Positions 38,271 through 57,202 of a stretch of 59,207 bases of DNA are shown piece by piece. Under the pieces are notes generated by a model that searched no databases, was not told the origin of the DNA, and saw only the letters and a program-made list of their open reading frames with translations. The DNA is from an uncultured Haliea sp. (GTDB taxonomy: Bacteria; Pseudomonadota; Gammaproteobacteria; Pseudomonadales; Halieaceae): the NCBI GenBank assembly GCA_913062625.1, contig CAJXWP010000011.1, positions 1 through 59,207 on the forward strand, given 5' to 3'. Positions within the stretch are counted from its first letter, which is position 1; each line of letters starts with the position of its first letter. The translations under genes were made by a program, and so were the position numbers.

Positions 38271-38314
38271 TGTGTCGACTGAGGTAGCGCGATCAATTTT
38301 GCGTCGCGTGATAC

Positions 38315-38346
38315 TTGAACACCACTAAAACATACTGTATGTTCAA
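38315..38346 (+). promoter_or_regulatory. shared promoter/operator element, copy 1
   Basis: TTGAAC (38315-38320) and GTTCAA (38341-38346) are inverted halves 20 bases apart. Inside is the perfect palindrome ACATACTGTATGT (38330-38342). Read as a promoter, TTGAAC is the -35 and TATGTT (38338-38343) the -10 with 17-base spacing, so the palindrome covers the -10. The same element, with identical spacing, lies at 46550-46581. The first acyl-CoA dehydrogenase start is 115 bases downstream. A repressor site is the simplest reading. Confidence 0.7.
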
Positions 38347-38460
38347 ATTCTGATCTGAGGTGGATTAATGTTCTGCCGTGAGTGTGTTTAACGAAGCGCC
38401 TTGCTGTCTGTGGCAGTTTCGCCCAGCGACAGTAATCCGCCCTAACTATGAGGTAAACCC

Positions 38461-39642
38461 GTGAGCGACCTTAATCAGTTTCGCCAGCAGACACGAGCCT
38501 GGCTGCAGGAGAATTGTCCCGAGACCATGCGTCAGCGAATTTTAGGATTCGGCGACTTCTATAACGGGGGCCGCAACCCCGAAATCACCCACCCGGATCA
38601 GAAACTCTGGTGTGATCGTATGGCTGATCGCGGTTGGACGGTGCCTCACTGGCCCAAGGAATACGGTGGCGGCGGTCTGAGCGCAGAAGAAGTGAGTGTG
38701 CTCGGTCAGGAGATGACCGCCATTGGGGCCCGGCGTGCACTGGATAGCTTCGGGATTTCAATGCTCGGCCCTGCGTTACTGCACTTTGGTTCCGAGGCGC
38801 AGAAGCTTGAACATCTGCCTAAAATCGTGCGCGGTGAAATCCGCTGGTGCCAGGGCTATTCTGAACCGAACTCCGGGTCTGACTTGGCGAGCCTTGCGAC
38901 CAAAGCCGAAAGCAAGGGTGACCATTACCTGATTAATGGCCAGAAAATATGGACGTCCTATGCTGATAAGTCCGACTGGATCTTTTGTCTTGTGCGCACC
39001 GACAGCTCCGGGACCAAGCATGAGGGCATTAGTTTTGTGCTGTTCGATATGGCTCAGGAGGGTGTGACGACTCGCCCCATTAAGCTGATCAGCGGAAGCT
39101 CTCCATTTTGTGAAACTTTCTTTGATAATGCGATCGCTGATAAGAAAAACCTTATCGGTGAAGAGGGTAATGGATGGACCATCGCAAAATATCTGCTGAC
39201 GCATGAGCGTGAGATGATCTCTGGTTTCGGGGCCGCCCCGAAAAAATCTGTCGGACAATTGGCACTGGAAAACATGGGAGCCGATGCCTCTGGCCGACTG
39301 TGCAACTCAATACTGCGCCAGAATATCGCCCAGTATCAGCTCGATACGATGGCGTTCGGTGCGACTATGGCACGGGTTGGAGACGAATCAAAAGCCGGAC
39401 AGGGTCTCGGTGCAGCGTCCTCCATATTTAAATATTACGGCACTGAATTGAACAAGCGGCGCAATGAATTGAATCTGGCCGTGTGTGGTGAATCCGGTTT
39501 GGGTTGGGAAGGAGAGGAATATCACCAGGGGGCGATCAGCAGAGATTGGCTGCGCTCTAAGGGAAATTCTATTGAGGGTGGCACCTCAGAAGTGCAGCTG
39601 AACATTATTGCCAAGCGTGTGCTCGGACTTCCCGACGCATAG
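38461..39642 (+). CDS. acyl-CoA dehydrogenase, subunit of an adjacent ACAD pair
   Basis: This 393-residue FAD enzyme introduces a 2,3-double bond in an acyl-CoA. The fold motifs are WPKEYGGGGLSAEEVSVLGQEM, RWCQGYSEPNSGSDLASL (substrate/FAD loop), INGQKIWTSYADKSDWIFCLVRTD and the C-terminal SIEGGTSEVQLNIIAKRVLGLP. It starts with GTG 38461, with GAGGTA 5 bases upstream. A second, shorter ACAD gene follows after 27 bases, the arrangement of heterotetrameric (alpha2-beta2) ACADs used on steroid side chains and other bulky acyl-CoAs. The substrate is unknown. It is first in the operon driven by the shared element. Confidence 0.9.
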   Translation: MSDLNQFRQQTRAWLQENCPETMRQRILGFGDFYNGGRNPEITHPDQKLWCDRMADRGWTVPHWPKEYGGGGLSAEEVSVLGQEMTAIGARRALDSFGISMLGPALLHFGSEAQKLEHLPKIVRGEIRWCQGYSEPNSGSDLASLATKAESKGDHYLINGQKIWTSYADKSDWIFCLVRTDSSGTKHEGISFVLFDMAQEGVTTRPIKLISGSSPFCETFFDNAIADKKNLIGEEGNGWTIAKYLLTHEREMISGFGAAPKKSVGQLALENMGADASGRLCNSILRQNIAQYQLDTMAFGATMARVGDESKAGQGLGAASSIFKYYGTELNKRRNELNLAVCGESGLGWEGEEYHQGAISRDWLRSKGNSIEGGTSEVQLNIIAKRVLGLPDA

Positions 39643-39669
39643 CCCCGGTTAGAGAGAGGATTCTTGAAG

Positions 39670-40809
39670 ATGGCATTGGTATTGAACGAAGAACAGGTGA
39701 TGTTAAAGGAGTCTGCCGCCGGCTTTCTGGCGGAGAACGCGACCGTGGCCCATCTGCGCGCATTGCGCGACAGTAACAGCGAGCGTGGCTTCAGCGACGA
39801 TGTGTGGGGTGAAATGGTGCAGATGGGCTGGGCGGGCATTGCGATTCCCGAAGCCTTTGGCGGCTTGGGCTATGGTTATACCGGTTTAGGGCTGTTGCTG
39901 GAACAGGCAGGCCGTAATCTGAGCGCCAGTCCCCTGCAATCCACTGTACTTGTGGCAGCAACATTGATTGGCGAATTGGGGAGCGCGCGACAAAAAGAGG
40001 CTCTGTTGCCGGCTATTGCTGCAGGCCAGAAGCTTGTCAGCTTAGCATTGCAGGAAGGGCCGCATCACGCACCACAGCAAAGCGCCTTGAGTGCGGCTGT
40101 GAATGAGGGTGACTATATCCTCAATGGCACTAAAGTGATGGTGTTGGATGCGGTTTCTGCGCACACTTTTATTGTCATCGCGCGCACCAGTGGGGCGTCT
40201 GGTGAGGAGCAGGGGTTGAGTGCTTTTCTGGTTGATGCAGATACCGCAGGTCTGACCGTCGAGCGTCGCAGTTTGGTAGACTCGCGCAGCGCAGGTGCTC
40301 TGGTGTGTGACAACGTGCGGATTCCTGCGGCCAATCTTTTGGGCGACCTCGGGGGCGCCTGGGTTGGGCTTATTCGCTCGCTGGATATTGCTAATATCGG
40401 CCTAGCGTCAGAGTTGCTGGGTGTGTCGACTGAAGTGTTTGAGAGGACGATCGTCTACTTGCAGGAGCGTAAGCAATTTGGTCGGATGATTGGTTCTTTT
40501 CAGGGTTTACAACATCGTGCGGCAGAGCTGTATGCGGAGCTGGAGCTGGCGCGATCAATTGTATTAAAGGCGCTACAGGCAATCGATAACGGCGACCAGG
40601 ATGTGTCTTTGATTGCCAGCGCTGCTAAGGCAAAGCTGTGCGAAGTGGCCCAGAGCGCGACCAATGAGGCTATCCAGATGCATGGCGGCATCGGCATGAC
40701 CGACGAGTACGACATCGGATTTTTTATTAAGCGAGCGCGGGTCGTTCAGCACACCTTTGGCGACTATAATTACCATCTGGATCGCTTTGCGCAGCTTAGC
40801 GGCTTCTGA
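39670..40809 (+). CDS. acyl-CoA dehydrogenase, second subunit of the pair
   Basis: This 379-residue ACAD-fold protein starts at ATG 39670 (GAGAGGA 9 bases upstream; TTG 39664 is too close). It has GIAIPEAFGGLGYGYTGLGLLLEQAGR, then RIPAANLLGDLGGAW, LQERKQFGRMIGSFQGLQHRAAELY and IQMHGGIGMTDEYDIGFFIKRARVVQHTFGDYNYH. It has neither the usual EGT nor the GGTSE motif at the C-terminus, so it may be the non-catalytic or FAD-contributing partner of the gene before it. That division of labour is known for heterotetrameric ACADs; here it is inferred. Confidence 0.88.
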   Translation: MALVLNEEQVMLKESAAGFLAENATVAHLRALRDSNSERGFSDDVWGEMVQMGWAGIAIPEAFGGLGYGYTGLGLLLEQAGRNLSASPLQSTVLVAATLIGELGSARQKEALLPAIAAGQKLVSLALQEGPHHAPQQSALSAAVNEGDYILNGTKVMVLDAVSAHTFIVIARTSGASGEEQGLSAFLVDADTAGLTVERRSLVDSRSAGALVCDNVRIPAANLLGDLGGAWVGLIRSLDIANIGLASELLGVSTEVFERTIVYLQERKQFGRMIGSFQGLQHRAAELYAELELARSIVLKALQAIDNGDQDVSLIASAAKAKLCEVAQSATNEAIQMHGGIGMTDEYDIGFFIKRARVVQHTFGDYNYHLDRFAQLSGF

Positions 40810-40832
40810 GCCTACAGTAGAGATGAAAACCC

Positions 40833-42560
40833 ATGACAATGAAGGCAGAACTAAAGCAGTTTGATGACGTGGTTGCCAGCCTCACCGGCGCTGGCCAAGG
40901 TTTTGAGGTGGACACTGTAGAACTTGCGGGTGTCCAATACCGCAACTTCGCTGGGTTGCCTGACAACCTTGCGCAGTACTTTACAGTGATGTTGCAGCAC
41001 TCGGAAAAAGAATTTGCAGTCTACTTAGACGAGCGTTATACCTTTGGCCAAGGCTACCAGCACAGTTGTGAATTTGGCGCCGCGTTAGTAAAACGCTATG
41101 GTCTGGTGAAGGGCGACCGAGTTGCTATTTTGAGCCGCAACAACCCGCAGTGGATGATGGCTTTTATCGGTATCACTTCTGTGGGCTGTGTGGCCGTGCC
41201 GATGAACGGCTGGTGGACGACAGAAGAACTGGACTACGGTTTTGCGGACAGTGGTGCCAAGGTTGTGGTGGCTGATCGCGCCCGTGTGCAGCGACTGGCT
41301 ACTATTGTAGAAAAACACGATCTGCAAATTATCGCGATTGACGATTGCAGTGGTCTCGGTGTTGAGCATGCGGTATTTGCGGAATTGCTGCGGGCGTTTT
41401 CGGGTGCAGGTATGCCCGCAAGAGAGGTTGCCTTAGAGGACCACGCTACGATTATGTACACCTCGGGTTCTACGGGCCACCCTAAAGGCGCACTGTCCTC
41501 CCACAGGGGCGTTCTGGCGGCGCTCTACAGTTGGATGTGTATGGGCGTCGCCACCAAGATGTCAGGGGCGCAGGCTGCCCCAGAGCAGGGACTACCGCCT
41601 TGTGCGCTGGTAACCATTCCGTTGTTTCATTGTACGGGTAGCCACTCCGCCTTCATGTTGTCTTTGGTGGTGGGTCGTAAAATGGTGATCATGCACAAGT
41701 GGGATGCAGAGGAGGCCCTGCGCCTGATCGAAGTGGAAAAAGTGACGTGGTTCAACGGTGTGCCTACTATGTCCGCAGAGTTGCAGGCAGCAGCGGTAAC
41801 CACGGCTCGGGATATTACGTCACTGACGGAGATTATGGCAGGCGGTGCTGCGCGACCCCCTGAGCAGGTAAAAAAAATCAGTGGTACGTTTAAAAACTCT
41901 ACACCGGGGATTGGCTACGGATTGACTGAAACGAATGCACTGGGGGCGGTGAATGCGGGTGCTTTCTATGTCGCCAGACCTGACAGCGCGGGGCGGGCCG
42001 TGCCACCGGTGACGGAGTTTCGCATTACTTCAGAAGACGGCCGTGAGCAACCCGCAGGAGAGCGGGGTGAGCTGTGTATAAAGTCTCCGGCCAATATACT
42101 GGGTTACTGGAACAAGCCGGATGCCACGGCAGAAGCCTTTGTTGACGGTTGGTTTCATACCGGTGACATCGCCTATCTGGACGAGGACGGATTTCTTTAT
42201 ATCGTTGATCGAATCAAGGAAATCATTATCCGAGGTGGCGAAAACATCAGCTGCATAGAAGTGGAGGCGGCTATTTACTCACACCCAGACATTCATGAGG
42301 TCGCAGTATTTGGGCTGCCCGACGAGCGTCTGGGCGAGATCGTAGGGGCTGCTGTTGTGCTTCGAGAAGGTGTTCAGCTTAGTTCGGACCAGCTCTGTGA
42401 ATATCTCACGGGGCAACTGGCAATATTCAAGATACCGACCCACATATGGTTCCCCACTGAGCAGCTACCGCGTATTGCATCCGGAAAAATTTTTAAACGA
42501 CAGATAAAGGCTGACTATACTGCTGAGTTGGCCGCCTATCTGGAAACATCCCCACACTAA
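40833..42560 (+). CDS. AMP-forming acyl-CoA synthetase (class I adenylate-forming)
   Basis: This 575-residue ligase activates a carboxylic acid to its CoA thioester via an acyl-AMP. Visible motifs are the P-loop YTSGSTGHPKGALSSH, GIGYGLTETNALGAV, WFHTGDIAYLDEDGFLYIVDRIKEIIIRGGENISCIEVE and the C-terminal catalytic Lys in IASGKIFKRQIK. It follows the ACAD pair by 23 bases, so it probably activates the substrate that those enzymes oxidise. Chain length or ring specificity cannot be read. Confidence 0.94.
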   Translation: MTMKAELKQFDDVVASLTGAGQGFEVDTVELAGVQYRNFAGLPDNLAQYFTVMLQHSEKEFAVYLDERYTFGQGYQHSCEFGAALVKRYGLVKGDRVAILSRNNPQWMMAFIGITSVGCVAVPMNGWWTTEELDYGFADSGAKVVVADRARVQRLATIVEKHDLQIIAIDDCSGLGVEHAVFAELLRAFSGAGMPAREVALEDHATIMYTSGSTGHPKGALSSHRGVLAALYSWMCMGVATKMSGAQAAPEQGLPPCALVTIPLFHCTGSHSAFMLSLVVGRKMVIMHKWDAEEALRLIEVEKVTWFNGVPTMSAELQAAAVTTARDITSLTEIMAGGAARPPEQVKKISGTFKNSTPGIGYGLTETNALGAVNAGAFYVARPDSAGRAVPPVTEFRITSEDGREQPAGERGELCIKSPANILGYWNKPDATAEAFVDGWFHTGDIAYLDEDGFLYIVDRIKEIIIRGGENISCIEVEAAIYSHPDIHEVAVFGLPDERLGEIVGAAVVLREGVQLSSDQLCEYLTGQLAIFKIPTHIWFPTEQLPRIASGKIFKRQIKADYTAELAAYLETSPH

Positions 42561-42599
42561 TTTTAAGCAACTGAACTAAGACGGGAAAGGAGAATGACA

Positions 42600-43817
42600 A
42601 TGGATTTAGGGATTAGCGCAAAACTGGCACCGCTGCTCGAAGAGGTACGGTGTTTTACTGAGAAGGAAATCCTGCCGGTAGAAGTCGAGTACTTCACTGA
42701 GATTGCTGTCGGCGATCGTTGGGAATTCACCCAGCGTCAGACCGATATTCGGGAGGGCCTGAAAGCCAAGGCAAAAGCAAAGGGGCTGTGGAATTTCTTT
42801 CTCACCGACGGTGACGCCGGCTCTGGCTTGAATACGGTGGAGTATGCGTATCTTGCAGAAGAGATGGGCAAGTCACATTTGGCCGCAGAGGTCTTTAATT
42901 GCGCTGCGCCCGATACGGGGAATATGGAGGTGCTGCATAAATACGGTACCGAGGAGCAGAAAAAAAAGTGGTTGGAGCCACTGTTGAACGGTGAGATTCG
43001 CTCGGCTTTTTCCATGACTGAGCCCGGAGTGGCGTCTTCTGACGCCACTAATATTTGCACTGAGGCAGTACTCGATGGCGACGATTGGGTGATCAATGGC
43101 GAGAAGCACTATGTATCAGGTGCTGGCGACCCTCGTTGTAAGGTTATGATTGTCATGGTAAAAACGGAGCCGGACGCGCCCAAGCATCAGCAGCAGTCGC
43201 AAATACTCGTGCCCATGGACGCGCCAGGTTTTGAAAACCTGCGGGCCATGAACGTGTTCTCCATGGATGATGCGCCTCACGGCCACATGCATCAAAAATT
43301 CACCAATGTGCGCGTACCCAAGGAAAATATTCTTTTGGGCTCCGGCCGCGGTTTTGAGATTTCCCAGGGTCGACTTGGGCCAGGTCGCATACATCACTGC
43401 ATGCGTGCCATCGGTGCTGCAGAAAAAGCACTAGAGCTGCTCTGCCAGCGGGCTGTTTCGCGGGTCGCTTTTGGCAAGCCTCTGGCGCGTCTGGGCGGTA
43501 ATATCGACATTATCGCGAATGCGCGAATGGATATTGAACAGGCCCGCCTGCTCACGCTAAAGACGGCTTGGATGATGGATCACGTCGATGCGAAAGAGGC
43601 CCGCGTGTGGATTTCGATGATTAAGACCGCGGTGCCTAATATTTCTATTCGCATCGTGGACGAGGCAATCCAGATGTTTGGCGCATTAGGCGTCAGCCAA
43701 GATACACCGCTGGCCAACATGTACATGTCCCAGCGTACGCTGCGATTAGCCGACGGTCCCGATGCCGTACATCGCATGGTGGTCGGCCGTAATGAGCTGA
43801 AACAATACCTCTCATAG
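42600..43817 (+). CDS. acyl-CoA dehydrogenase (ACAD10/11-like)
   Basis: This is 405 residues from ATG 42600, which has AGGAG 7 bases upstream; ATG 42594 is too near it. It has EEMGKSHLAAEVFNCAAPDTGNMEVLHKYGT, SAFSMTEPGVASSDATNI, GEKHYVSGAGDPRCKVMIVMVKT, ENILLGSGRGFEISQGRLGPGRIHHCMRAIGAAEKAL and the C-terminal RLADGPDAVHRMVVGR. The last motif, in place of EGT, is typical of ACAD10/11-type enzymes that act on branched, hydroxylated or very long acyl-CoAs. It closes the operon begun at 38461 (39 bases after the ligase). Confidence 0.92.
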   Translation: MDLGISAKLAPLLEEVRCFTEKEILPVEVEYFTEIAVGDRWEFTQRQTDIREGLKAKAKAKGLWNFFLTDGDAGSGLNTVEYAYLAEEMGKSHLAAEVFNCAAPDTGNMEVLHKYGTEEQKKKWLEPLLNGEIRSAFSMTEPGVASSDATNICTEAVLDGDDWVINGEKHYVSGAGDPRCKVMIVMVKTEPDAPKHQQQSQILVPMDAPGFENLRAMNVFSMDDAPHGHMHQKFTNVRVPKENILLGSGRGFEISQGRLGPGRIHHCMRAIGAAEKALELLCQRAVSRVAFGKPLARLGGNIDIIANARMDIEQARLLTLKTAWMMDHVDAKEARVWISMIKTAVPNISIRIVDEAIQMFGALGVSQDTPLANMYMSQRTLRLADGPDAVHRMVVGRNELKQYLS

Positions 43818-43900
43818 CGGGGCTTCAGCGCAATACTTCGATACGTCTGTGCAAACAACAATTGTCGCGGTCTGTCTGCACAGGCGTTTTCTAAAAAACA

Positions 43901-43928
43901 TTGCTTTAAATTAGTGGTCGACTAATGT
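43901..43928 (+). promoter_or_regulatory. candidate promoter with embedded palindrome before the third TonB receptor
   Basis: TTGCTT (43901-43906) and TAATGT (43923-43928) are 16 bases apart. ATTAGTGGTCGACTAAT (43910-43926) has 6-base inverted arms around a 5-base centre and covers the spacer and -10. It differs from the shared TTGAAC element, so another regulator may act here. Confidence 0.45.
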
Positions 43929-43966
43929 AGGTTCAGTAAAATATCAATAAGAAGGGACGCAGTGTA

Positions 43967-46429
43967 ATGAATATCGCTAATAACCGGTATGCGCCGTTTC
44001 TGGCGTTGATGGCTTTTTTTCCCGTAGCCCCTTTGGTGTCTGCAGCAGCAGTTAACTCGCTTGAAGAAATCATTGTAACGGCCAATAAGCGGGAAGCCTC
44101 GCTGATGGATACTGCCGCATCAATTAGCGCCTTTGACAGCGCCACGCTTGATCAGTTGGGCATTACGGGTAGCCAGGACCTGGTGGTACATACGCCTTCC
44201 CTGTCGATTACAACGTTTAGGGTCAGTATTCGCGGGGTGGGTCGGCCCAATCTGGCAGTAGGTTCAGAGCCAGGCATCGGTATCTATTGGGACGGTGTAT
44301 ACAACACGGAAAACGGCATATTCAATTATTCCGAATTCATGGATATTGAGCGCATTGAGGTATTGCGGGGGCCACAGGGCATCCTCTATGGCCGCAATTC
44401 TGTCGGCGGTGCCATAAGCTTTGTCAGTAAGCGACCTAGCGAGGAGTGGGAGGGTAACGTCACAGCGCAACTCACCAATTACGACGGCAGATTAATTCAG
44501 GGGCTGGCCAGTGGCCCGATCACTGACACATTGAGTGTGTTGGCGGGTGCGTCCTATATCAGCCACGATGGATTCCAAAAAAACACGTACAACGGCAAGG
44601 ACTATGAGCAGGACAAAACGCCCTACGGTACGGTGAGCCTGGAGTATCAGCCCAATGATCGCTGGAATACCGTGCTCAAGGTGATAGGTGTGGACCGCGA
44701 GTATCGGCAGGGAAGCGCCTACATACTGGAGCCTTTTGCACGCGAGTTAGCGCAACCCGTAACGAATGATACTACTGGTGCGACCATTAGCTTGCCGGGT
44801 ATGCTCCCCGCGCAGAACTTCGTCAATATGCGCCAGGGCTTGGCCATAGAGAATCCCGCGCTGCAAGATGAGGACAAAGTAACACAAGACCGTAATCCAA
44901 ATCTCAAAAACCGGCGCTGGGCGGTCTTTCTGAATAGCGAATACAGCGCAGACACTTTCACCCTCAAGTACACCGGGGGCTATAACAAATACTGGTTTGA
45001 TACCACAAATGATGCCGACGCCAGCGTTCAGGCGGACTCGGGCGTCGACTGGACCAAGATCACTACCAAAATCGGAGGCGTTGATATTCCTGTCGCGAAT
45101 CTCCCCGGCTTCCCAGGGAATCCGATTACGGGCGCCGATATGACCTTCAACGTCGACCAGGACGCGAGATTCAGCTCCCACGAATTGCAGTACTCGTCGG
45201 AATGGGACAGTGATTTCTCGTTGTTGGGCGGACTCTATTACTACCACAGCGACGAAAATCAGGTGGTGGATTTTCGAGAGTGGAATGATGAGTTAATGGA
45301 GATGTACCAGTATATCGTCGACCTTGCCAACCTCGTTGGCGTCGATGTGCCTAACGTTGTAAGTTCCGATAATTATCTTTATCGCGGGGAAGCAAGTGTC
45401 GATACTCGATCCTACGCAACCTATGGACAGCTATCGTGGGATCTATCACCCAAGACCGTGCTGACCGCCGGTTTGCGTTATTCGTATGATGAGAAGAAAG
45501 GCAGTGATAATACCTTTGTGCAGTATGTTGGCGATCCTAATGATCCTACCGTGTACAGGAATGAAGATGACAGTTGGGACAAGTGGACCTGGCGCTTGGG
45601 TGCGGACCATTACTTGACGGAGGATCAGTTTCTGTACGCCTTTATCGCGACGGGTTATCGCTCTGGTGGTTTTAATTTTCAAAAGCCCAGCGCTACTACA
45701 GATGTTGATGTGGTGAAGCCGGAAGAAATTATCTCCTATGAGATAGGCTATAAAGGGTCAACATTTGAAAACCGGTTGAATGTGGGTGCCTCTGTGTATT
45801 ACTACGATTACACCGAGTTACAGGTGATTAAGCAGGACGTGGAAAACGGCATCGCCTTGAACACTTTTGAAAATGCCAAAGATGCAGAAGCCGCCGGTCT
45901 GGAACTGGACTTTAGAGCCCTGCCGATACCGAGCATCATGCTCAGCGGAACGTACTCTTACAATTTCACGGAGTTTAAAACCTTCTCCAGCAAAGATGCC
46001 AACGCTTGCACTTTGGGGCCCTATGCAGTGGGCGATACTCAGAACCCGCTATGCACCGACGAGCAGGATCTCCAAGGCAATGAATTTGTGTTGACGCCCA
46101 AAAACAAGGCGTCTTTGAATGCTACCTATTTTTGGCAGATGTTTGATCTCGATTGGTCCGCTACCGGTACTTATGCCTACACCGGCAAACAGTGGATGTC
46201 GATTTTCAATGATCCGCAATACGATAGAGTCGACAGCTATGACCGTTGGGATGCGCGTGTGAATATGGCCGCCCTCGATCAGCAATGGGAGGTGACTGCA
46301 TTCGTCAAAAATATCACCGATGATCGGAATATCCTCAACCGAGGACGGCCCGCTACTGTGACCCAAAACGCGGGAACCACGCTGTCTGATCCGCGTATTT
46401 ACGGGTTAAAACTGCAGTACAACTTTTAA
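43967..46429 (+). CDS. TonB-dependent receptor (LEEIIVTANKR type), catabolic locus
   Basis: This 820-residue receptor has a signal peptide (FLALMAFFPVAPLVSAAA), the TonB-proximal LEEIIVTANKR, a plug with SIRGVGRPNLAVGSEPGIGIYWDGVY and LRGPQGILYGRNSVGGAISFVSKRP, and a barrel ending RIYGLKLQYNF. It lies between the two operons that share the TTGAAC element, but its own promoter carries a different palindrome. It is probably an importer of the organic substrate of this locus; specificity is unknown. Confidence 0.93.
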   Translation: MNIANNRYAPFLALMAFFPVAPLVSAAAVNSLEEIIVTANKREASLMDTAASISAFDSATLDQLGITGSQDLVVHTPSLSITTFRVSIRGVGRPNLAVGSEPGIGIYWDGVYNTENGIFNYSEFMDIERIEVLRGPQGILYGRNSVGGAISFVSKRPSEEWEGNVTAQLTNYDGRLIQGLASGPITDTLSVLAGASYISHDGFQKNTYNGKDYEQDKTPYGTVSLEYQPNDRWNTVLKVIGVDREYRQGSAYILEPFARELAQPVTNDTTGATISLPGMLPAQNFVNMRQGLAIENPALQDEDKVTQDRNPNLKNRRWAVFLNSEYSADTFTLKYTGGYNKYWFDTTNDADASVQADSGVDWTKITTKIGGVDIPVANLPGFPGNPITGADMTFNVDQDARFSSHELQYSSEWDSDFSLLGGLYYYHSDENQVVDFREWNDELMEMYQYIVDLANLVGVDVPNVVSSDNYLYRGEASVDTRSYATYGQLSWDLSPKTVLTAGLRYSYDEKKGSDNTFVQYVGDPNDPTVYRNEDDSWDKWTWRLGADHYLTEDQFLYAFIATGYRSGGFNFQKPSATTDVDVVKPEEIISYEIGYKGSTFENRLNVGASVYYYDYTELQVIKQDVENGIALNTFENAKDAEAAGLELDFRALPIPSIMLSGTYSYNFTEFKTFSSKDANACTLGPYAVGDTQNPLCTDEQDLQGNEFVLTPKNKASLNATYFWQMFDLDWSATGTYAYTGKQWMSIFNDPQYDRVDSYDRWDARVNMAALDQQWEVTAFVKNITDDRNILNRGRPATVTQNAGTTLSDPRIYGLKLQYNF

Positions 46430-46739
46430 CCTCAGGCGGAGCTGCTCTGACTGGCGCAGAGTGTCCCCATCGATGACACATTAAGCGCCGGGGCCAACCG
46501 TCGCTCGCCGTTATTCGTCCGTGAGACGGCGGGTGTGGGTATAAAATACTTGAACCCGCCAAATACATACTGTATGTTCAAATTCTTTTCTAATCTGATA
46601 TATTCGGTTCATAGCTGCCTTTGGTAGTTCTTTGACCAAAAGTATCTTTGCCATCAGCGCCCACAGCGGCGAATGAAGTAGTATGGCTCGACAACAATCA
46701 ACCGTTTCTGGCGCAGCAAAAATCGATGAGGAGCACACT
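46430..46739. other. intergenic region before the MaoC operon
   Basis: This 310-base region contains the second copy of the shared element (46550-46581). A frame from ATG 46683 runs into the MaoC gene, but the ribosome site GAGGAG lies just before ATG 46740. Nothing else is coding. Confidence 0.5.
46550..46581 (+). promoter_or_regulatory. shared promoter/operator element, copy 2
   Basis: TTGAAC (46550-46555), GTTCAA (46576-46581) and the inner palindrome ACATACTGTATGT (46565-46577) repeat copy 1 at 38315-38346 with the same 20-base spacing. The preceding ATAC and following ATTCT are also shared, while only part of the spacer and the outer flanks differ. As a promoter: -35 TTGAAC, 17 bases, -10 TATGTT (46573-46578). 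The MaoC start is about 160 bases downstream. Confidence 0.7.
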
Positions 46740-47204
46740 ATGGCAGTAAAGATCGTACCCAAGGAAGAAATGTTAGACGCTATCGGCACTAAGTTCGAAC
46801 CCGGTGAGTGGATCGAGGTGACGCAGGACCGTATCAATGTTTTCGCCGACTGCACCGAAGATCATCAGTTTATTCATGTGGACGAAGAAGCTGCAAAGAA
46901 TACGCCGTTTGGGAGCACCATCGCTCACGGGTTCTTGACCCTATCACTCCTCCCTAAAATGATTGAAGGCAATGGCGTGATTCCTGAGAACATTGTGATG
47001 GGGCTAAACTACGGGTTTGACAAGGTGCGTTTTCTGGCGCCAGTGAAGTCCGGCAAGCGCGTTCGCGCTAACTCGGAAATTGCCGACATCGTACGCAAAG
47101 ATGATAATCGCTTTCTAATCAAGCAGGTTGTTTCCATAGAGATCGAGGGAGAGGAAACGCCGGCATTAGTGGCTGAATGGCTGAGTATGGTAATCGCCGG
47201 CTGA
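46740..47204 (+). CDS. MaoC-like enoyl-CoA hydratase
   Basis: This 154-residue hot-dog-fold (R)-hydratase/NodN-like protein carries the hydratase motif FADCTEDHQFIHVDEEAAKNTPFGSTIAHGFLTLSLLP, with Asp and His as catalytic pair. It adds water to a 2-enoyl-CoA. I chose ATG 46740 for the GAGGAG at good spacing. It leads an operon with an SDR 41 bases later and a thiolase, which together would cover hydration, oxidation and thiolysis of one beta-oxidation turn. Confidence 0.9.
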   Translation: MAVKIVPKEEMLDAIGTKFEPGEWIEVTQDRINVFADCTEDHQFIHVDEEAAKNTPFGSTIAHGFLTLSLLPKMIEGNGVIPENIVMGLNYGFDKVRFLAPVKSGKRVRANSEIADIVRKDDNRFLIKQVVSIEIEGEETPALVAEWLSMVIAG

Positions 47205-47245: not shown

Positions 47246-48160
47246 ATGTCTATTCGTTATGACGGTAAGGTCGCAATTGTTACCGGTTCTGGTCAAGGGT
47301 TAGGCCGCAGTCATGCTATCGAGCTGGCGAAACGTGGCGCAAAAGTTGTCGTTAACGATCTAGGTGGCGGTGTTGATGGCTCAGGTGGCTCATCCGATGC
47401 GGCCAAGGCTGTGGTGGCAGAGATAGAGGCGCTAGGCGGCGAGGCGATAGCCAACGGTGCCAATGTTGCCAAATACGACGAAGTCGAGGCCATGGTTCAG
47501 CAGACGATGGACAAGTGGGGCCGCGTTGATATCTTAGTCAACAATGCCGGTATCCTGCGCGACAAGAGTTTTGTCAAAGGCACACTGGACGACTTCAAAC
47601 TGGTGCTGGATGTGCATCTGATGGGCAGTGTCAATTGTACCAAGGCCTGTTGGGAGATTATGCGGGAACAGGCATACGGTCGTATTGTGGTCACCACGTC
47701 GTCATCCGGGCTGTACGGCAACTTTGGGCAGGCCAACTATGGCAGCGCCAAGATGGGCGTGATCGGCTTAATGAATACGTTGGCACAGGAAGGCGCTAAG
47801 TACAATATACGTATCAGCGCCCTAGCGCCTACTGCGGGCACTCGCATGACCGAAGGTCTGATTCCAGAGGAAGCATTTGCACTGCTGACCCCCGAAACGG
47901 TAACACCGGCAGTACTGTACATGGTGAGCGAGGACGCACCGACCAGAACAATTATGGCGGCTGGTGCGGGCGGTTTCTCTGTGGCCCGAATCGTTGAGTC
48001 TGCGGGTATCTGGTTGGCACCGGAAGATCAGACACCTGAGGGAATTGCCGCGAATTGGGACGCCATCAGTTCTACCGATGGTGAGACCCAGCCACAGACC
48101 GGCGCCGAGCAGACCATGAAAATGGCTGGCCTCGCGATGCAGGGGCTGGGACTCAGCTAA
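47246..48160 (+). CDS. SDR, (3R)-hydroxyacyl-CoA dehydrogenase (17-beta-HSD type 4-like)
   Basis: This 304-residue short-chain dehydrogenase is of the type forming the N-terminal domain of peroxisomal multifunctional enzyme 2. It has TGSGQGLG (13-20), VNDLGGGVDGSGGS, LVNNAGILRDKSF, SSSGLYGNFGQANYGSAK (catalytic Ser, Tyr and Lys) and ISALAPTAGTRMTEGL. Together with the MaoC hydratase encoded just upstream it reproduces, as two separate genes, the hydratase and dehydrogenase halves of that enzyme. A C-terminal tail of about 35 residues follows the fold. Confidence 0.92.
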   Translation: MSIRYDGKVAIVTGSGQGLGRSHAIELAKRGAKVVVNDLGGGVDGSGGSSDAAKAVVAEIEALGGEAIANGANVAKYDEVEAMVQQTMDKWGRVDILVNNAGILRDKSFVKGTLDDFKLVLDVHLMGSVNCTKACWEIMREQAYGRIVVTTSSSGLYGNFGQANYGSAKMGVIGLMNTLAQEGAKYNIRISALAPTAGTRMTEGLIPEEAFALLTPETVTPAVLYMVSEDAPTRTIMAAGAGGFSVARIVESAGIWLAPEDQTPEGIAANWDAISSTDGETQPQTGAEQTMKMAGLAMQGLGLS

Positions 48161-48214: not shown

Positions 48215-49393
48215 ATGAAAGAAGCTGTAATTGTATCCACCGCTCGCACCCCGATTGGCAAGGCCTTTCGTGGCGGGTTTAATAATCTTGGCGGGGCAAC
48301 TTTGGGCGCGGCATCAGTGGCCGAGGCGGTCCGGCGCGCCGGTATAGACCCGGCTCGCGTCGAAGACGTGATTATGGGCAGTGCCCTGCAACAGGGTGCC
48401 ACCGGTTCCAACATCGCGCGCCAGATTGCGTTGCGTGCGGGTCTGCCGATTACCACGTCGGGTATGACGATAGACCGTCAATGTTCGTCGGGCCTGATGG
48501 CGGTAGCAACGGCTGCGAAGCAGGTCATGTACGACGGCATGGACTGTGTGATCGGCGGTGGACTGGAGTCTATTTCGCTAGTGCAGAATGAACACATGAA
48601 CCTGCATCGTATGGTAGACGATGAGTTGATGGCGATTGAGCCTAATATGTTCGTGCCAATGCTGCAAACAGCCGAAATTGTTGCCGACCGTTACAACGTT
48701 TCGCGTGAAGCGATGGACGAATACGGTCTGCAATCGCAGCAACGCACTGCGGCGGCTTATGCCGCTGGTAAGTTTGCCGATGAATTAGTCGACGTTACCT
48801 GTAAACGCATCGCCTGGGATAAAGCGACCGGGAATTCGTCAGAAGTTGAAGCGACTGTGTCTGCTGATGAAGGTTTGCGTGGCACAACGTTGGAAGGCCT
48901 CCAAGGTCTAAAAACCGTCATTGAAGGTGGCACCATCACCGCTGGCAATGCATCACAACTCTCTGACGGGTCTTCCGCTCAGCTGATTATGGATTCAAAG
49001 GTTGCTGAGAGCGAGGGTCTGCAGCCTCTGGGAATTTATCGCGGTATCGCTGTTGCCGGTTGTGCTCCCGATGAGATGGGGATTGGCCCGGTCTTTGCAG
49101 TGCCCAAGCTGCTCAAGCAGCACGGTCTGTCGGTTGATGACATTGGCCTGTGGGAACTCAACGAAGCCTTTGCCGTGCAGGTCATTTACTGTCGCGATCA
49201 GTTGGGCATCGACAATGATAAGCTCAATGTGAACGGCGGTGCTATTTCTATCGGACACCCCTATGGCATGAGTGGCTCGCGCATGATTGGTCACGCGCTG
49301 ATCGAGGGCAAACGTCGTGGCGTTAAATACGTCGTTGTCACGATGTGTGTGGGTGGCGGCATGGGTGCGGCAGGTTTGTTCGAAGTCGCGTGA
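48215..49393 (+). CDS. thiolase (acetyl-CoA acyltransferase)
   Basis: This 392-residue thiolase has nucleophile Cys90 ([12 protein letters not shown]), catalytic His348 ([15 protein letters not shown]) and acid/base Cys378 ([15 protein letters not shown]). It cleaves 3-ketoacyl-CoA with CoA. A GGAGGAAAGGG ribosome site precedes ATG 48215. It follows the SDR in the same operon; a strong terminator comes 13 bases after the stop. Which chain it cuts is unknown. Confidence 0.95.
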
Positions 49394-49476: not shown

Positions 49477-50454
49477 ATGAAAGCAGTGACATGCAAAGAA
49501 CATGGTCTACCCGATAAGCTAGAGCTGGTGTTGGACTGGCCGGAACCCGAAGTGGGTGAGCACGATGTATTGATCGACGTTAAGGCTGCGGGTCTGAACT
49601 TCCCCGACGTGCTAATGATTCAGGGTAAATACCAGTACCAGCCTGAGATGCCGTTTATTCCAGGTGGCGAGTGTGCCGGAGTAGTGGCAGCAGTCGGGGC
49701 CAAAGTCAGTCGTTTCAAGGTAGGAGACAAGGTGCTATCCGCAGGTGGCTCCGGCGCATTTTGCCAAAAAATTGCGGTCAGTGAGTTGAGTGCATTTCCG
49801 ATGCCCGAGGGGCTCAGCTTTGAGCAGGCTGCTGGCGTTAGCATTACCTACTTTACCTCCTATTACGCTCTCAAACAGCGGGCCAATATCCAGCCGGGTG
49901 AAACCCTGCTGGTGCTGGGAGCAGCCGGAGGCGTCGGCACCAGTGCTATTGAACTGGGCAAACAAATGGGTGCCAAGGTTATTGCAGCAGCGAGTACCGA
50001 TGAGAAGCTCAAGCTGTGTAAGAAATTGGGCGCTGATGAGATCATCAATTACAGTGAAGTGAACCTGAAGGATGCCATCAAGGAATTGACGGGTGGAAAA
50101 GGTGTGGATGTAGTTTACGACCCGGTGGGTGGTGATTATGCAGAGCCGGCGCTTCGCGGTATGGCTTGGAACGGTCGTTATCTGGTGATTGGTTTCGCCA
50201 GCGGTCCTATTCCCAAGATCGCACTCAACCTTGCTTTGCTCAAAGGCTGTTCTATCGTGGGTGTGTTCTGGGGACGCTTTTCGGGTGAGGAGCCCGAGGT
50301 TAATTTAAAGAATATTGAGGAGCTGTGGGCGTTATTTGCCAGCGGTAAAATCAGCCCGGAGGTGACGGATAGCTTTCCTGTAGAGCAGTATGAAGAAGCC
50401 TTCAACTGTATGATAGAACGTCGCGCACGTGGCAAGGTCATCATCACGATGTAG
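49477..50454 (+). CDS. zinc-free MDR NAD(P)H:quinone oxidoreductase
   Basis: This 325-residue medium-chain dehydrogenase lacks the zinc-ligand cysteines of alcohol dehydrogenases. It has PFIPGGECAGVVAAVGAKVSRFKVGDKV, the nucleotide loop LVLGAAGGVGTSAIELGKQMGAKVIAAASTDEK and GGKGVDVVYDPVGGD. Such enzymes reduce quinones or enoyl/enal groups with NADPH. A GAGGAATAATA ribosome site precedes ATG 49477. It sits between the thiolase terminator and the Fe-alcohol dehydrogenase (10-base gap), so it either uses read-through or a promoter in the short gap. Confidence 0.9.
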   Translation: MKAVTCKEHGLPDKLELVLDWPEPEVGEHDVLIDVKAAGLNFPDVLMIQGKYQYQPEMPFIPGGECAGVVAAVGAKVSRFKVGDKVLSAGGSGAFCQKIAVSELSAFPMPEGLSFEQAAGVSITYFTSYYALKQRANIQPGETLLVLGAAGGVGTSAIELGKQMGAKVIAAASTDEKLKLCKKLGADEIINYSEVNLKDAIKELTGGKGVDVVYDPVGGDYAEPALRGMAWNGRYLVIGFASGPIPKIALNLALLKGCSIVGVFWGRFSGEEPEVNLKNIEELWALFASGKISPEVTDSFPVEQYEEAFNCMIERRARGKVIITM

Positions 50455-50464
50455 GGAGTCTTAG

Positions 50465-51631
50465 ATGCAAAGCTTTGAATTCACTGCGGTCGCTAGAATT
50501 ATTAATGGAGTCGGCAGTGCACTGGAACTTGCCGCCCAGTGCAGGCGCTTGGGTATAGAGCATCCTCTGCTGGTCACCGATCCTGGATTGATGTCTATCG
50601 GCCTAATACAGCCAGTTCTTGCCGCGTTGGAAAAAGAAGGGCTCGCACCGCTGGTGTTTGACCAAGTACGCGAAGATCCACCAGAAGCCACTGTACTGGC
50701 TGCCGCCGAAGTGGCGCGCCGTGGCAATGTCGATGGCGTCATAGCGGTTGGCGGTGGCAGCTCAATGGACGTGGCCAAGGTGGTGGCAGTGCTGCTCGGT
50801 TCTCAGCAAACACTATCTGAGCTGTATGGCGTGAATCAGGTAACCGGCCCCAGACTGCCATTGATTCTAGTGCCCACGACGGCAGGAACGGGTTCCGAGG
50901 TCACACCGGTGGCCGTAATCACCACTGGTGAGACGACCAAGGCCGGCGTCTCATCGCCGATATTGTTGCCGGATATAGCGGTGTTAGATGCCGCACTAAC
51001 CTTGGGACTGCCACCCGCTATCACCGCCATGACCGGAGTTGATGCGATGGTTCACGCCATCGAAGCCTATACGTCTCGCCATAAGAAAAACCCTTTGTCC
51101 GACAATCTGGCCGTTAAGGCCTTAGCACTGTTATCGCGCAATATTCGCACCGCGGTGCATGACGGTGGCAATCGCGAAGCGCGAGGAAATATGCTTTTGG
51201 GTGCCTGTTTGGCGGGTCAAGCATTTGCGAATGCCCCTGTCGGCGCGGTACATGCATTGGCCTATCCGTTGGGTGGCCACTACCATATTCCCCACGGCTT
51301 GAGTAACTCGCTAGTGTTGCCGTCTGTGTTGGCGTTTAATGCGTCGCATGCGGATGAACTTTACGCGGAGCTGGCAGAGGTTGTGATCGGAGCCACGGTT
51401 GCGGGCAGCGCCAGTGCCAAAAGTGCTGCACTGACGGAGGCACTGCGTCAGCTTGTCGACGATGTAAAATTGCCTGCTACATTGCAACAGGCCGGAGTGC
51501 AAGAAAGCGATCTGGAAATGTTGGCCAGTGATGCAATGCTGCAGCAGCGCCTGCTGATGAATAATCCGCGAGAAGTGTCGTATGAAGACGCGCTATCCAT
51601 CTATAAAGCCGCCTACGGAGCTGGCGCATGA
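50465..51631 (+). CDS. iron-containing alcohol dehydrogenase
   Basis: This 388-residue group III dehydrogenase has GGGSSMDVAKVVA (NAD site), PTTAGTGSEVTPVAVI and metal-ligand segments TGVDAMVHAIEAYTS (Asp, His) and AVHALAYPLGGHYHIPHGLSNS (two His). It oxidises an alcohol or reduces an aldehyde. An AGGGAG ribosome site precedes ATG 50465. Its stop overlaps the thioesterase start (ATGA), so the two products are made together. The substrate is unknown. Confidence 0.93.
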   Translation: MQSFEFTAVARIINGVGSALELAAQCRRLGIEHPLLVTDPGLMSIGLIQPVLAALEKEGLAPLVFDQVREDPPEATVLAAAEVARRGNVDGVIAVGGGSSMDVAKVVAVLLGSQQTLSELYGVNQVTGPRLPLILVPTTAGTGSEVTPVAVITTGETTKAGVSSPILLPDIAVLDAALTLGLPPAITAMTGVDAMVHAIEAYTSRHKKNPLSDNLAVKALALLSRNIRTAVHDGGNREARGNMLLGACLAGQAFANAPVGAVHALAYPLGGHYHIPHGLSNSLVLPSVLAFNASHADELYAELAEVVIGATVAGSASAKSAALTEALRQLVDDVKLPATLQQAGVQESDLEMLASDAMLQQRLLMNNPREVSYEDALSIYKAAYGAGA

Positions 51632-52056
51632 GTAAGGAGGCGCCGCCCACCAGAGCGGATTATAAGCTGTTCTATCCTATCTCTACGCGCTGGTCCGACA
51701 ATGATATTTATGGCCATGTGAACAATGTGACCTACTACGCTTATTTCGATACCGTTGCTAACCGCTACCTCATTGAAGAGGGCGGACTGGATATTAGTGA
51801 CGGGACTATTGTTGGCTACGTGGTCAGTTCGGGCTGCGAATACCATGCTCCTATTACGTACCCCGAGTCCGTAGAAGCCGGTTTGCGCGTGGACCGGCTC
51901 GGCAACAGTTCAGTGCAGTATGGCATTGCCATTTTTAGGGAGGGCGAGCAGGTCGCTGCTGCACACGGTTATTTCGTACATGTCTTTGTTGAGCGAGCGG
52001 AAAACCGTTCTGTACCGATTCCGAAAAATCTGCGCGTGGCACTGGAGCGCTTGTAA
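51628..52056 (+). CDS. acyl-CoA thioesterase (4HBT hot-dog fold)
   Basis: This 142-residue hot-dog protein has the 4-hydroxybenzoyl-CoA thioesterase-type motif TRWSDNDIYGHVNNVTYYAYFDT, with the catalytic Asp in SDNDIYGHVNN. It hydrolyses an acyl-CoA to free acid and CoA, possibly for release of a product or CoA recycling. ATGA overlap with the alcohol dehydrogenase gene ties the two. It is the last plus-strand gene of the locus and faces the MFS gene 18 bases away. Confidence 0.9.
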   Translation: MSKEAPPTRADYKLFYPISTRWSDNDIYGHVNNVTYYAYFDTVANRYLIEEGGLDISDGTIVGYVVSSGCEYHAPITYPESVEAGLRVDRLGNSSVQYGIAIFREGEQVAAAHGYFVHVFVERAENRSVPIPKNLRVALERL

Positions 52057-55655: not shown

Positions 55656-56312
55656 TTAGTTAGCGGTCAGGCTGGGAGCCTCAAGGCCGCCAATTAGGTA
55701 GTCAACCAGATGGTCGAGTAAAGTGTCTTCATCGAAATAGCTTAGGTCTCCCAGTGGTGTGTTGGTGAGCCAGAAAACTTCTGCGACGCCGTGAAATACA
55801 TTGGTGCTAATAAACATAAGCCGCAGCCGTCGGACCGGAGCAGGCAGAGCGGGCAATTGTTCGGCTAAAGCATGGTCCAATCGCTGCGAGAAGGGTGCAC
55901 ATATGGTATTGACCATCTTGGCGATTTCGGCATCGCTCTCACTCAACAGTCGGGACAGAAACTTGACTCCGTCGGCGCCCCAGCTTTTTTTTGCGGGTAA
56001 TTCAATTAGCGGGCGCAGCGTATCACGACACGCACTGCGCAGTGACCGCTTCGATGACTGCTCTGGGCGCAGGGCAGTGGCAATATATCCCAGTTCATCT
56101 GCAATCATGTCTATTAGCGCTTGAATCACGCCCACTTTATTGTGGAAGTGATAATGCATCGCCGCGGAGTTTTTTGAGCCTGCCTCGATACTGATGCGCC
56201 GCAGTGAAACTGCATGCAGGCCTTCACGAGCATAGAGTCGCAATGCCATTAGCAACAGACGGTCGCGCGTGTCTGCATTTTTTCCCGATGTCGCATGCGC
56301 GAGTGTTGTCAT
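55656..56312 (-). CDS. TetR-family transcriptional regulator
   Basis: This 218-residue protein starts at ATG 56312, which overlaps the SDR stop (ATGA); a longer frame to 56384 is not needed. The N-terminal HTH (about 15-60) has TRDRLLLMALRLYAREGLHAVSLRRISIEAGSKNSAAMHYHFHNK, typical TetR. The C-terminal ligand domain (about 70-200) resembles those of lipid/acyl-CoA-responsive regulators only in a general way. It is transcribed between an SDR and two ACAD genes and is the only regulator in the window. It is therefore the prime candidate to bind the TTGAAC/ACATACTGTATGT elements and to respond to the pathway substrate or its CoA ester. Confidence 0.92.
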   Translation of the reverse strand: MTTLAHATSGKNADTRDRLLLMALRLYAREGLHAVSLRRISIEAGSKNSAAMHYHFHNKVGVIQALIDMIADELGYIATALRPEQSSKRSLRSACRDTLRPLIELPAKKSWGADGVKFLSRLLSESDAEIAKMVNTICAPFSQRLDHALAEQLPALPAPVRRLRLMFISTNVFHGVAEVFWLTNTPLGDLSYFDEDTLLDHLVDYLIGGLEAPSLTAN

Positions 56313-57133
56313 TTCAGTCGCTTGCCAGTAGTGCCCGTTCGCATCCCCAAGATTCGGGGATAGCGCACAGGAAATAGGCGGCATACAAGGGAAATTAATT
56401 TGGCATCCATGCCAATTAGAAGCCGTTTTTTGCGCTTCTCTACGGCACCAACGATTTGTGCAGCGGCTTCTTCCGGGCTCGTGTGAGCCAGTTTCTGAAA
56501 CTCACTGTTACGCTCGTCGGCATTGAGGTCAGAATCTCCGCTGCGTGCAGCGCGAGCGATGTTGGTCTTGATGCCGCCGGGGTGGACGCAGCACACGTGG
56601 ACGTTACCGCCATCCATCTCTTGGCGTAGGGCTTCGGTGTAACCACGCACGGCAAATTTGGCCGCGTTATAAGCCGATTGAGTGGGAGCTGACATTAGGC
56701 CGAACACCGAGGAAATGTTGACCAAGTGTCCCTGTTGAGATTTACGTAGTAGGGGCAGAAAGGCCTGTGTGCCATAAACGACGCCCCAGAAATTAATACC
56801 CATCAGCCACTCAAAGTCTTCGTAGCGGTGATTCTCGACGCTTGATACGAGACCGACGCCTGCGTTGTTGATGACAATATCAACATGGCCTCTGGTCTCG
56901 GCGATGTTTTCGGCCCAGCGATGGACGCTCAGTTTTTCAGCCACATCGAGAACATGCATATCGGCAAAAATCTCTTTGCGCGATAGCATTGCGAGGGTTT
57001 CATTCAGGCAATCGGCACTGATGTCGCTCAGGTACAGCTCGCAGCCCTCGCGGTTTAGTTGCACTGCCAGCGCGCGGCCGATACCTGAGCCCGCGCCTGT
57101 AAGCACGGCAGTTTTACCATTCACATAAGTCAT
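56309..57133 (-). CDS. SDR family dehydrogenase
   Basis: This 274-residue classical short-chain dehydrogenase has TGAGSGIG (12-19), VINNAGVGLVSS, NISSVFGLMSAPTQSAYNAAKFAV (catalytic Ser, Tyr and Lys) and VHPGGIKTNIARAA. The C-terminal basic tail (RYPRILGMRTGTTGKRLK) resembles acyl/steroid SDRs close to membranes. It is the first gene of the minus-strand operon SDR-tetR-ACAD-ACAD-MFS. GAGG lies 9 bases upstream of ATG 57133. It oxidises or reduces an alcohol/ketone; the substrate is unknown. Confidence 0.92.
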   Translation of the reverse strand: MTYVNGKTAVLTGAGSGIGRALAVQLNREGCELYLSDISADCLNETLAMLSRKEIFADMHVLDVAEKLSVHRWAENIAETRGHVDIVINNAGVGLVSSVENHRYEDFEWLMGINFWGVVYGTQAFLPLLRKSQQGHLVNISSVFGLMSAPTQSAYNAAKFAVRGYTEALRQEMDGGNVHVCCVHPGGIKTNIARAARSGDSDLNADERNSEFQKLAHTSPEEAAAQIVGAVEKRKKRLLIGMDAKLISLVCRLFPVRYPRILGMRTGTTGKRLK

Positions 57134-57151: not shown

Positions 57152-57202
57152 TTGTTCATACAGGTGATAATAAGCGGTTTCTGGATTAAAGCAATTGCTT
57201 TA
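57152..57202 (-). promoter_or_regulatory. promoter and operator of the SDR-tetR-ACAD operon
   Basis: On the minus strand TTGCTT (57194-57189) and TATTAT (57172-57167) are separated by 16 bases. The -35 lies inside the perfect palindrome TAAAGCAATTGCTTTA (57187-57202). Just downstream of the -10, 57152-57168 reads TTGTTCATACAGGTGAT. This resembles one half of the shared element read in reverse (TTGAACATACAG), a possible weak site for the same regulator. Confidence 0.5.

Follow-up and report, generated by a model that had tools for sequence, protein, structure and literature searches.

An element that occurs twice in the window, the stretch of 59,207 nucleotides of Haliea sp. DNA analysed here, is real and conserved in the Halieaceae. 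One copy stands before each half of an acyl-CoA catabolic pathway. The single-domain TetR protein encoded further along the window is probably not its regulator. The better candidate is most likely a tandem TetR protein encoded on another contig, whose own promoter carries a related site.

Direct reading at both places confirmed the two copies of TTGAAC-N20-GTTCAA that had been described from the sequence alone. The first 32-mer, at 38315-38346, is TTGAACACCACTAAAACATACTGTATGTTCAA and the second, at 46550-46581, is TTGAACCCGCCAAATACATACTGTATGTTCAA. Both follow ATAC and precede ATTCT, and both hold ACATACTGTATGT at the same internal position, so that the shared inner palindrome and the matching outer bases also stand. 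The two full elements are:

38311..38351, + strand: element copy 1, with ATACTTGAA as its left part (likely −35 region), the core AAACATACTGTATGTTCAAA at 38328-38347, then ATTCT
46546..46586, + strand: element copy 2, with the core ATACATACTGTATGTTCAAA at 46563-46582

Scoring for TTGAAC-N20-GTTCAA without mismatches returned only these two copies in the window; at up to three mismatches the window gave 25 matches against a shuffle mean of 22.95, which is no excess. Across the 3,072,711-base genome (G000) the 17-mer ACATACTGTATGTTCAA has exactly two perfect matches; the additional ones at three mismatches are scattered and similar to those of a reversed control. The sequence-only reading had also placed a promoter here. 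Its 17-base spacing between TTGAAC and TATGTT holds; the fit to the sigma-70 consensus is 8 of 12 positions by manual count, below the 9/12 threshold of our promoter scan, whose output does not include the pair. A promoter at this position is plausible, and the further claim that the element overlaps the likely −10 is supported. The ATACT of the core is repeated 21 bp upstream within ATACTTGAA (38311-38325 and 46546-46560), and this repeat is possibly a second half-site. A literature text search for ACATACTGTATGT as a literal string gave no match among 5.39 million papers.

The genes downstream of both copies are those expected from the earlier description:

38461..39642, + strand: ACAD1, acyl-CoA dehydrogenase (best NCBIfam model pimC_large, below cut-off)
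39664..40809, + strand: ACAD2, acyl-CoA dehydrogenase (best NCBIfam model pimD_small, below cut-off)
40833..42560, + strand: acyl-CoA ligase
42594..43817, + strand: ACAD3, acyl-CoA dehydrogenase
43967..46429, + strand: TonB-dependent receptor, between the pathway halves
46683..47204, + strand: MaoC-like hydratase, first gene past copy 2
47246..48160, + strand: short-chain dehydrogenase (SDR)
48215..49393, + strand: acetyl-CoA acyltransferase (thiolase), above the NF005494 cut-off
49477..52056, + strand: quinone oxidoreductase-like protein, iron-containing alcohol dehydrogenase and thioesterase, which complete the second half

Another lipid-related gene of the window, at 23855-25879, encodes a neutral/alkaline ceramidase (Pfam PF04734).

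We compared 57 genomes, 36 from the window's family and 21 others, the family being assigned as Halieaceae from named loci (the 80 best of 480 relatives, those of Haliea salexigens DSM 19537 and Chromatocurvus halotolerans DSM 23344 among them). With up to two mismatches the 17-mer was matched in 37 of the 57, including all 18 of the window's genus. In 15 of these the two copies share a contig, about 8.2–9.6 kb from each other; in two genomes (G007 and G009) each copy sits on a contig of its own, and one genome (G003, 74% complete) has a single copy. Two such matches in G021 were taken as chance, one of them lying within a gene on the opposite strand. The degenerate core AAACATACYNNANGTYCAAA, allowing one mismatch, was found in 32/36 family genomes and, with one match each, in 3/21 of the others, and its reversed control had no match in the 57 genomes. 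The search of relatives proposed in the sequence-only reading found the element before the orthologous operon in all 30 first-gene upstream regions that were fetched, in one case (L051) at three mismatches, supporting a conserved regulatory site shared by the two halves of a single catabolic pathway. The footprint in these regions is ATACTTGAa-N-G-N5-AAAACATACTGTATGTTCAAA, where AAAACATACTGTATGTTCAAA, running from the spacer to past the −10, is conserved in 29–30 of 30 at most columns. The left ATACT, which starts 21 bp before the core ATACT in the ungapped alignment, is kept in 27 of the 30. The outer symmetry fared worse: the final C of TTGAAC survives in 19/30 regions, against 29/30 for GTTCAA. 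We therefore rejected TTGAAC...GTTCAA as a functional symmetry, the left stretch not being kept as a palindrome arm.

The layout of the pathway varies among relatives. In five genomes (G020, G026, G029, G030 and G033) MaoC directly follows ACAD3 and the sole site is at the front, in G030 as a three-mismatch variant; the ligase was unmatched in G030 and G033, and the thiolase in G033. Those fetched genomes that have genes between ACAD3 and MaoC carry a second site before MaoC, as seen in the window's genus (TonB receptor) and in G019, G022, G024, G031 and G032. In G034 the second site lies in a gap of about 520 bp with no gene called between, and G028 has one site before ACAD3-MaoC. A split of the pathway between ACAD3 and MaoC leaves the second half with its own copy of the site. 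Copy 2 may have arisen once or more often: in a 17-genome tree the one-copy genomes G026 and G033 fall inside two-copy genomes, with supports of 45 and 55.

A search for TetR_N domains in six element-bearing genomes found a protein with two of them in all six. In this genome it is a 431-residue protein with both TetR_N matches in one frame, encoded at C20:11351-12646, on a contig outside the window; the G020 ortholog matches TetR_N and TetR_C_24 twice each. The tandem TetR is present in 30/36 family genomes and 0/21 others, counts that, like those of the element set beside them, ignore kinship among the genomes. Four genomes that have no tandem TetR (G018, G021, G023 and G027) are the same four that have no core, and they also have no catabolic cluster. 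In G008 it was missing except for a 44-residue C-terminal piece, and in G002, an 89% complete draft, the element is present and the tandem TetR was not found. The two recognition helices, TKTSLYYYV and SKGAFYYHI, are both conserved and unlike each other; in one ortholog group T replaces the first S of a recognition helix.

Sites related to the element also stand in the promoter of the tandem-TetR gene. This promoter reads TAGACAACCTCACACATTATACTTAAAGTTGGAATTAT in the window's genome, where the site ends 49 bases before the called start, and a related site was present in 20/20 of the loci first fetched, as a TAGACA-like box followed by ATACTTAAAGTT or a variant. The promoters of G022, G024 and G035 have AAACATACTCTAAAGTAAAA-like forms. 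The G030 first-operon site, AAACATACTTAAAGTTCAAA, is one base from the tandem-TetR site of many loci, AAAAATACTTAAAGTTCAAA. The pattern ATACTNNANGTTNNAA has three zero-mismatch occurrences in the window's genome, the two elements and the tandem-TetR promoter, and its reversed control has one; since the pattern was drawn after viewing its three sites, only the lack of further matches is informative. A third promoter carries the site in many relatives. It belongs to an operon a few kb from the tandem TetR, ACAD1'-ACAD2', with AAACATAC-type sites and often also a luciferase-like monooxygenase, an SDR and AceK (luciferase and AceK by Pfam in G022). Across the three promoters the shared site is asymmetric, yet the catabolic copy by itself is a 13-bp odd palindrome. 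In place of the palindromic operator first proposed, the functional site is probably asymmetric. Nor is the regulon local, as had been suggested, because in relatives it includes other operons and the tandem-TetR gene.

We scored these upstream regions with two matrices. In the first test 62/79 tandem-TetR upstreams, 29/44 ACAD1' upstreams and 11/646 others exceeded 15 bits. All 11 of these others precede an ORF of 580–594 residues, which we provisionally took to lead the linked operon; this lipoprotein-like ORF leads the tandem-TetR-linked operon, with the site, in 11 named loci (L204, L205, L208, L225 and L226 among them). A stricter matrix was built from six distinct first-operon cores, with L051 left out, and its cut was set at the 99th percentile of 635 other upstreams. 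Above that cut were 72/79 tandem-TetR upstreams of the named loci and 39/55 linked-operon upstreams. In 300 column-permuted matrices the means were 4% and 2%, respectively, and the maxima 65% and 20%; because permuted matrices reached 65%, base composition explains a part. Where tandem-TetR ORFs were over-long their upstream windows were lengthened, a step that slightly favours matches. As the loci are interrelated and some are contigs of the compared genomes themselves, the counts measure conservation and not independent events. The top-scoring other upstream (L226) is one of the 11 ORF-preceding matches, missed by the sorting rule. Two loci from near relatives of the window's genome (L176 and L179) fell just below the cut, the tandem-TetR site of that genome itself scores modestly, at 14.1 of 30.9 bits, and 16 of the 55 linked-operon upstreams, some of them internal to the operon, had no match. 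G026 has a single core match, at its main operon.

The sequence-only reading had named as repressor of both operons the TetR encoded in the window, where the relevant features are:

55656..56384, − strand: single-domain TetR (TetR_N + TetR_C_30), probably not the element's regulator
57187..57202, unstranded: TAAAGCAATTGCTTTA, a perfect palindrome before an SDR-TetR-ACAD-ACAD operon

That this protein binds ACATACTGTATGT in both elements has some appeal: it is encoded on the same contig 9 kb downstream, beside two more acyl-CoA dehydrogenases, its ortholog (at least 58% identity) is in 18/18 genus genomes, and ACATACTGTATGT is, as a matter of general knowledge, a good TetR-type palindrome. Outside the genus, however, the ortholog was found only in G025 (58%), and is absent from 13 of the 14 other-genus family genomes that have the element, where the best matches are 25–32% identical or missing. 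Its operon moreover has a different perfect palindrome, TAAAGC-N4-GCTTTA, in 12/12 fetched loci holding that operon and in 0/246 other loci, and no ACATACTGTATGT within three mismatches was found near it. We reject this protein as the regulator on the basis of its distribution and its own distinct palindrome. The assignment is probably wrong and such binding highly improbable, and TAAAGCAATTGCTTTA is likely the protein's own operator. Its likeness to single-domain regulators of the PsrA/AcrR type comes from its best NCBIfam model, a Vibrio-type PsrA (44.7 of 300 bits, far below the cut-off); it differs from the tandem TetR both as a protein and in its likely operator.

A third possibility is that another transcription factor controls both pathway halves, the linked operon and the tandem-TetR gene, making the tandem TetR a target and not the master. 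The evidence for the tandem TetR is all comparative, membership of the regulon would by itself place a site in its promoter, and this genome has 28 TetR domain matches; yet a self-regulated local regulator typically has, as the tandem TetR does, a site in its own promoter, a linked operon with the site and a matching distribution, and we regard control by another factor as unlikely. The element could also be just a core promoter under strong conservation, to which no dedicated regulator binds. TTGA and TATGTT stand at the −35/−10 places with a 17-bp spacing, and the tandem-TetR promoter has, by our reading, TAGACA-17-TAAAGT in the same register. The conserved stretch, however, takes in the spacer and extends beyond the −10 (AAAACATACTGTATGTTCAAA), far outside the hexamers, and the sites mark few promoters per genome, which makes a core promoter alone very unlikely.

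We thus favour the tandem TetR as regulator of both elements, and consider it probable, from these comparisons, that it represses the pathway and its own gene and is released by a ligand. In each element an operator would cover the likely −10 region of a promoter and be bound by the protein of about 431 residues through two TetR DNA-binding domains, accompanied by two TetR C-terminal domains. The single chain would fold as a pseudo-dimer, whose two unlike recognition helices may read the unlike halves of the non-palindromic ATACT-NN-A-N-GTT-NN-AA. Repression of both acyl-CoA pathway halves and of the regulator's own gene would end once a pathway acyl-CoA or acid binds the protein.

The predicted fold is consistent with this arrangement. 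An L177 ortholog, 88% identical to this genome's tandem TetR, was modelled from 49 alignment rows (pLDDT 87.2, pTM 0.85) with 18 helices. Among the 50 PDB matches listed, the only one to span both units was the first in rank, Mce3R (9b7y_A; E 2.6e-9, TM 0.61/0.67, rmsd 7.5, 437 alignment columns, 16% identity); the rmsd is large, suggesting a like architecture and not a close fit. Each half of the model resembles the folds of KstR2 (4w97), AibR (5k7z) and FadR (3whb), repressors of acyl-CoA and steroid metabolism whose regulated genes are of the same sort as those here. Binding to palindromes as dimers is regarded as the rule among TetR repressors, with few exceptions. AibR and FadR-type TetR repressors are single-domain proteins that act as dimers, and KstR2, likewise single-domain and unlike the tandem TetR, acts as a dimer according to PMC11667970. 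The same paper describes Mce3R of Mycobacterium tuberculosis (PDB 9b7y) as a single-chain double TetR repressor with a non-palindromic operator that controls its own gene and lipid-related genes, and its authors present 9b7y as the first double TetR repressor structure (PMC11667970).

Both Mce3R and the tandem TetR are one chain with two TetR units. By sequence the two match weakly, over a single DNA-binding domain (E 1.3e-6), the single-domain TetR 3dcf matching better (E 4.9e-17), and a separate fusion is therefore possible. The sites differ as well: Mce3R has two 25-bp sites 53 bp apart, whereas here there is one core and a partial repeat, ATACTTGAA, 21 bp upstream. As this distance is exactly two helical turns, the partial second site might let two chains bind. 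We raise, tentatively, the fuller picture of a separately arisen Halieaceae TetR fusion, acting as a single-chain pseudo-dimer on an asymmetric operator over a family-wide acyl-CoA regulon, with two chains side by side over the −35/−10 via ATACTTGAA. Fusion of two TetR units would free the operator from symmetry and allow it to drift between targets. A second double-TetR regulator, widespread in harmless marine bacteria and with natural operator variants by the dozen, would offer a chance to examine how an asymmetric site is read by a fused repressor. The case also corrects a common shortcut, since the regulator need not be the TetR encoded closest by. Literature searches on double or tandem TetR and on Halieaceae TetR found no paper on this regulator among the results listed.

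Further sites of this kind occur elsewhere in the family, and as a set they fit a lipid-type regulon and do not fix the substrate. G024 has them before a wax-ester synthase and a luciferase-like protein, and G022 and G035 before ACAD5-ACAD4 pairs. In G028 an exact core (L097:11459-11475) precedes a nitronate monooxygenase-like gene and an HMG-CoA reductase gene, which suggests that in this lineage the regulon is linked to isoprenoids. On other contigs, close core variants stand directly before TonB-dependent receptor genes in G026 (L096:9546-9562) and G035 (L090:136-152).
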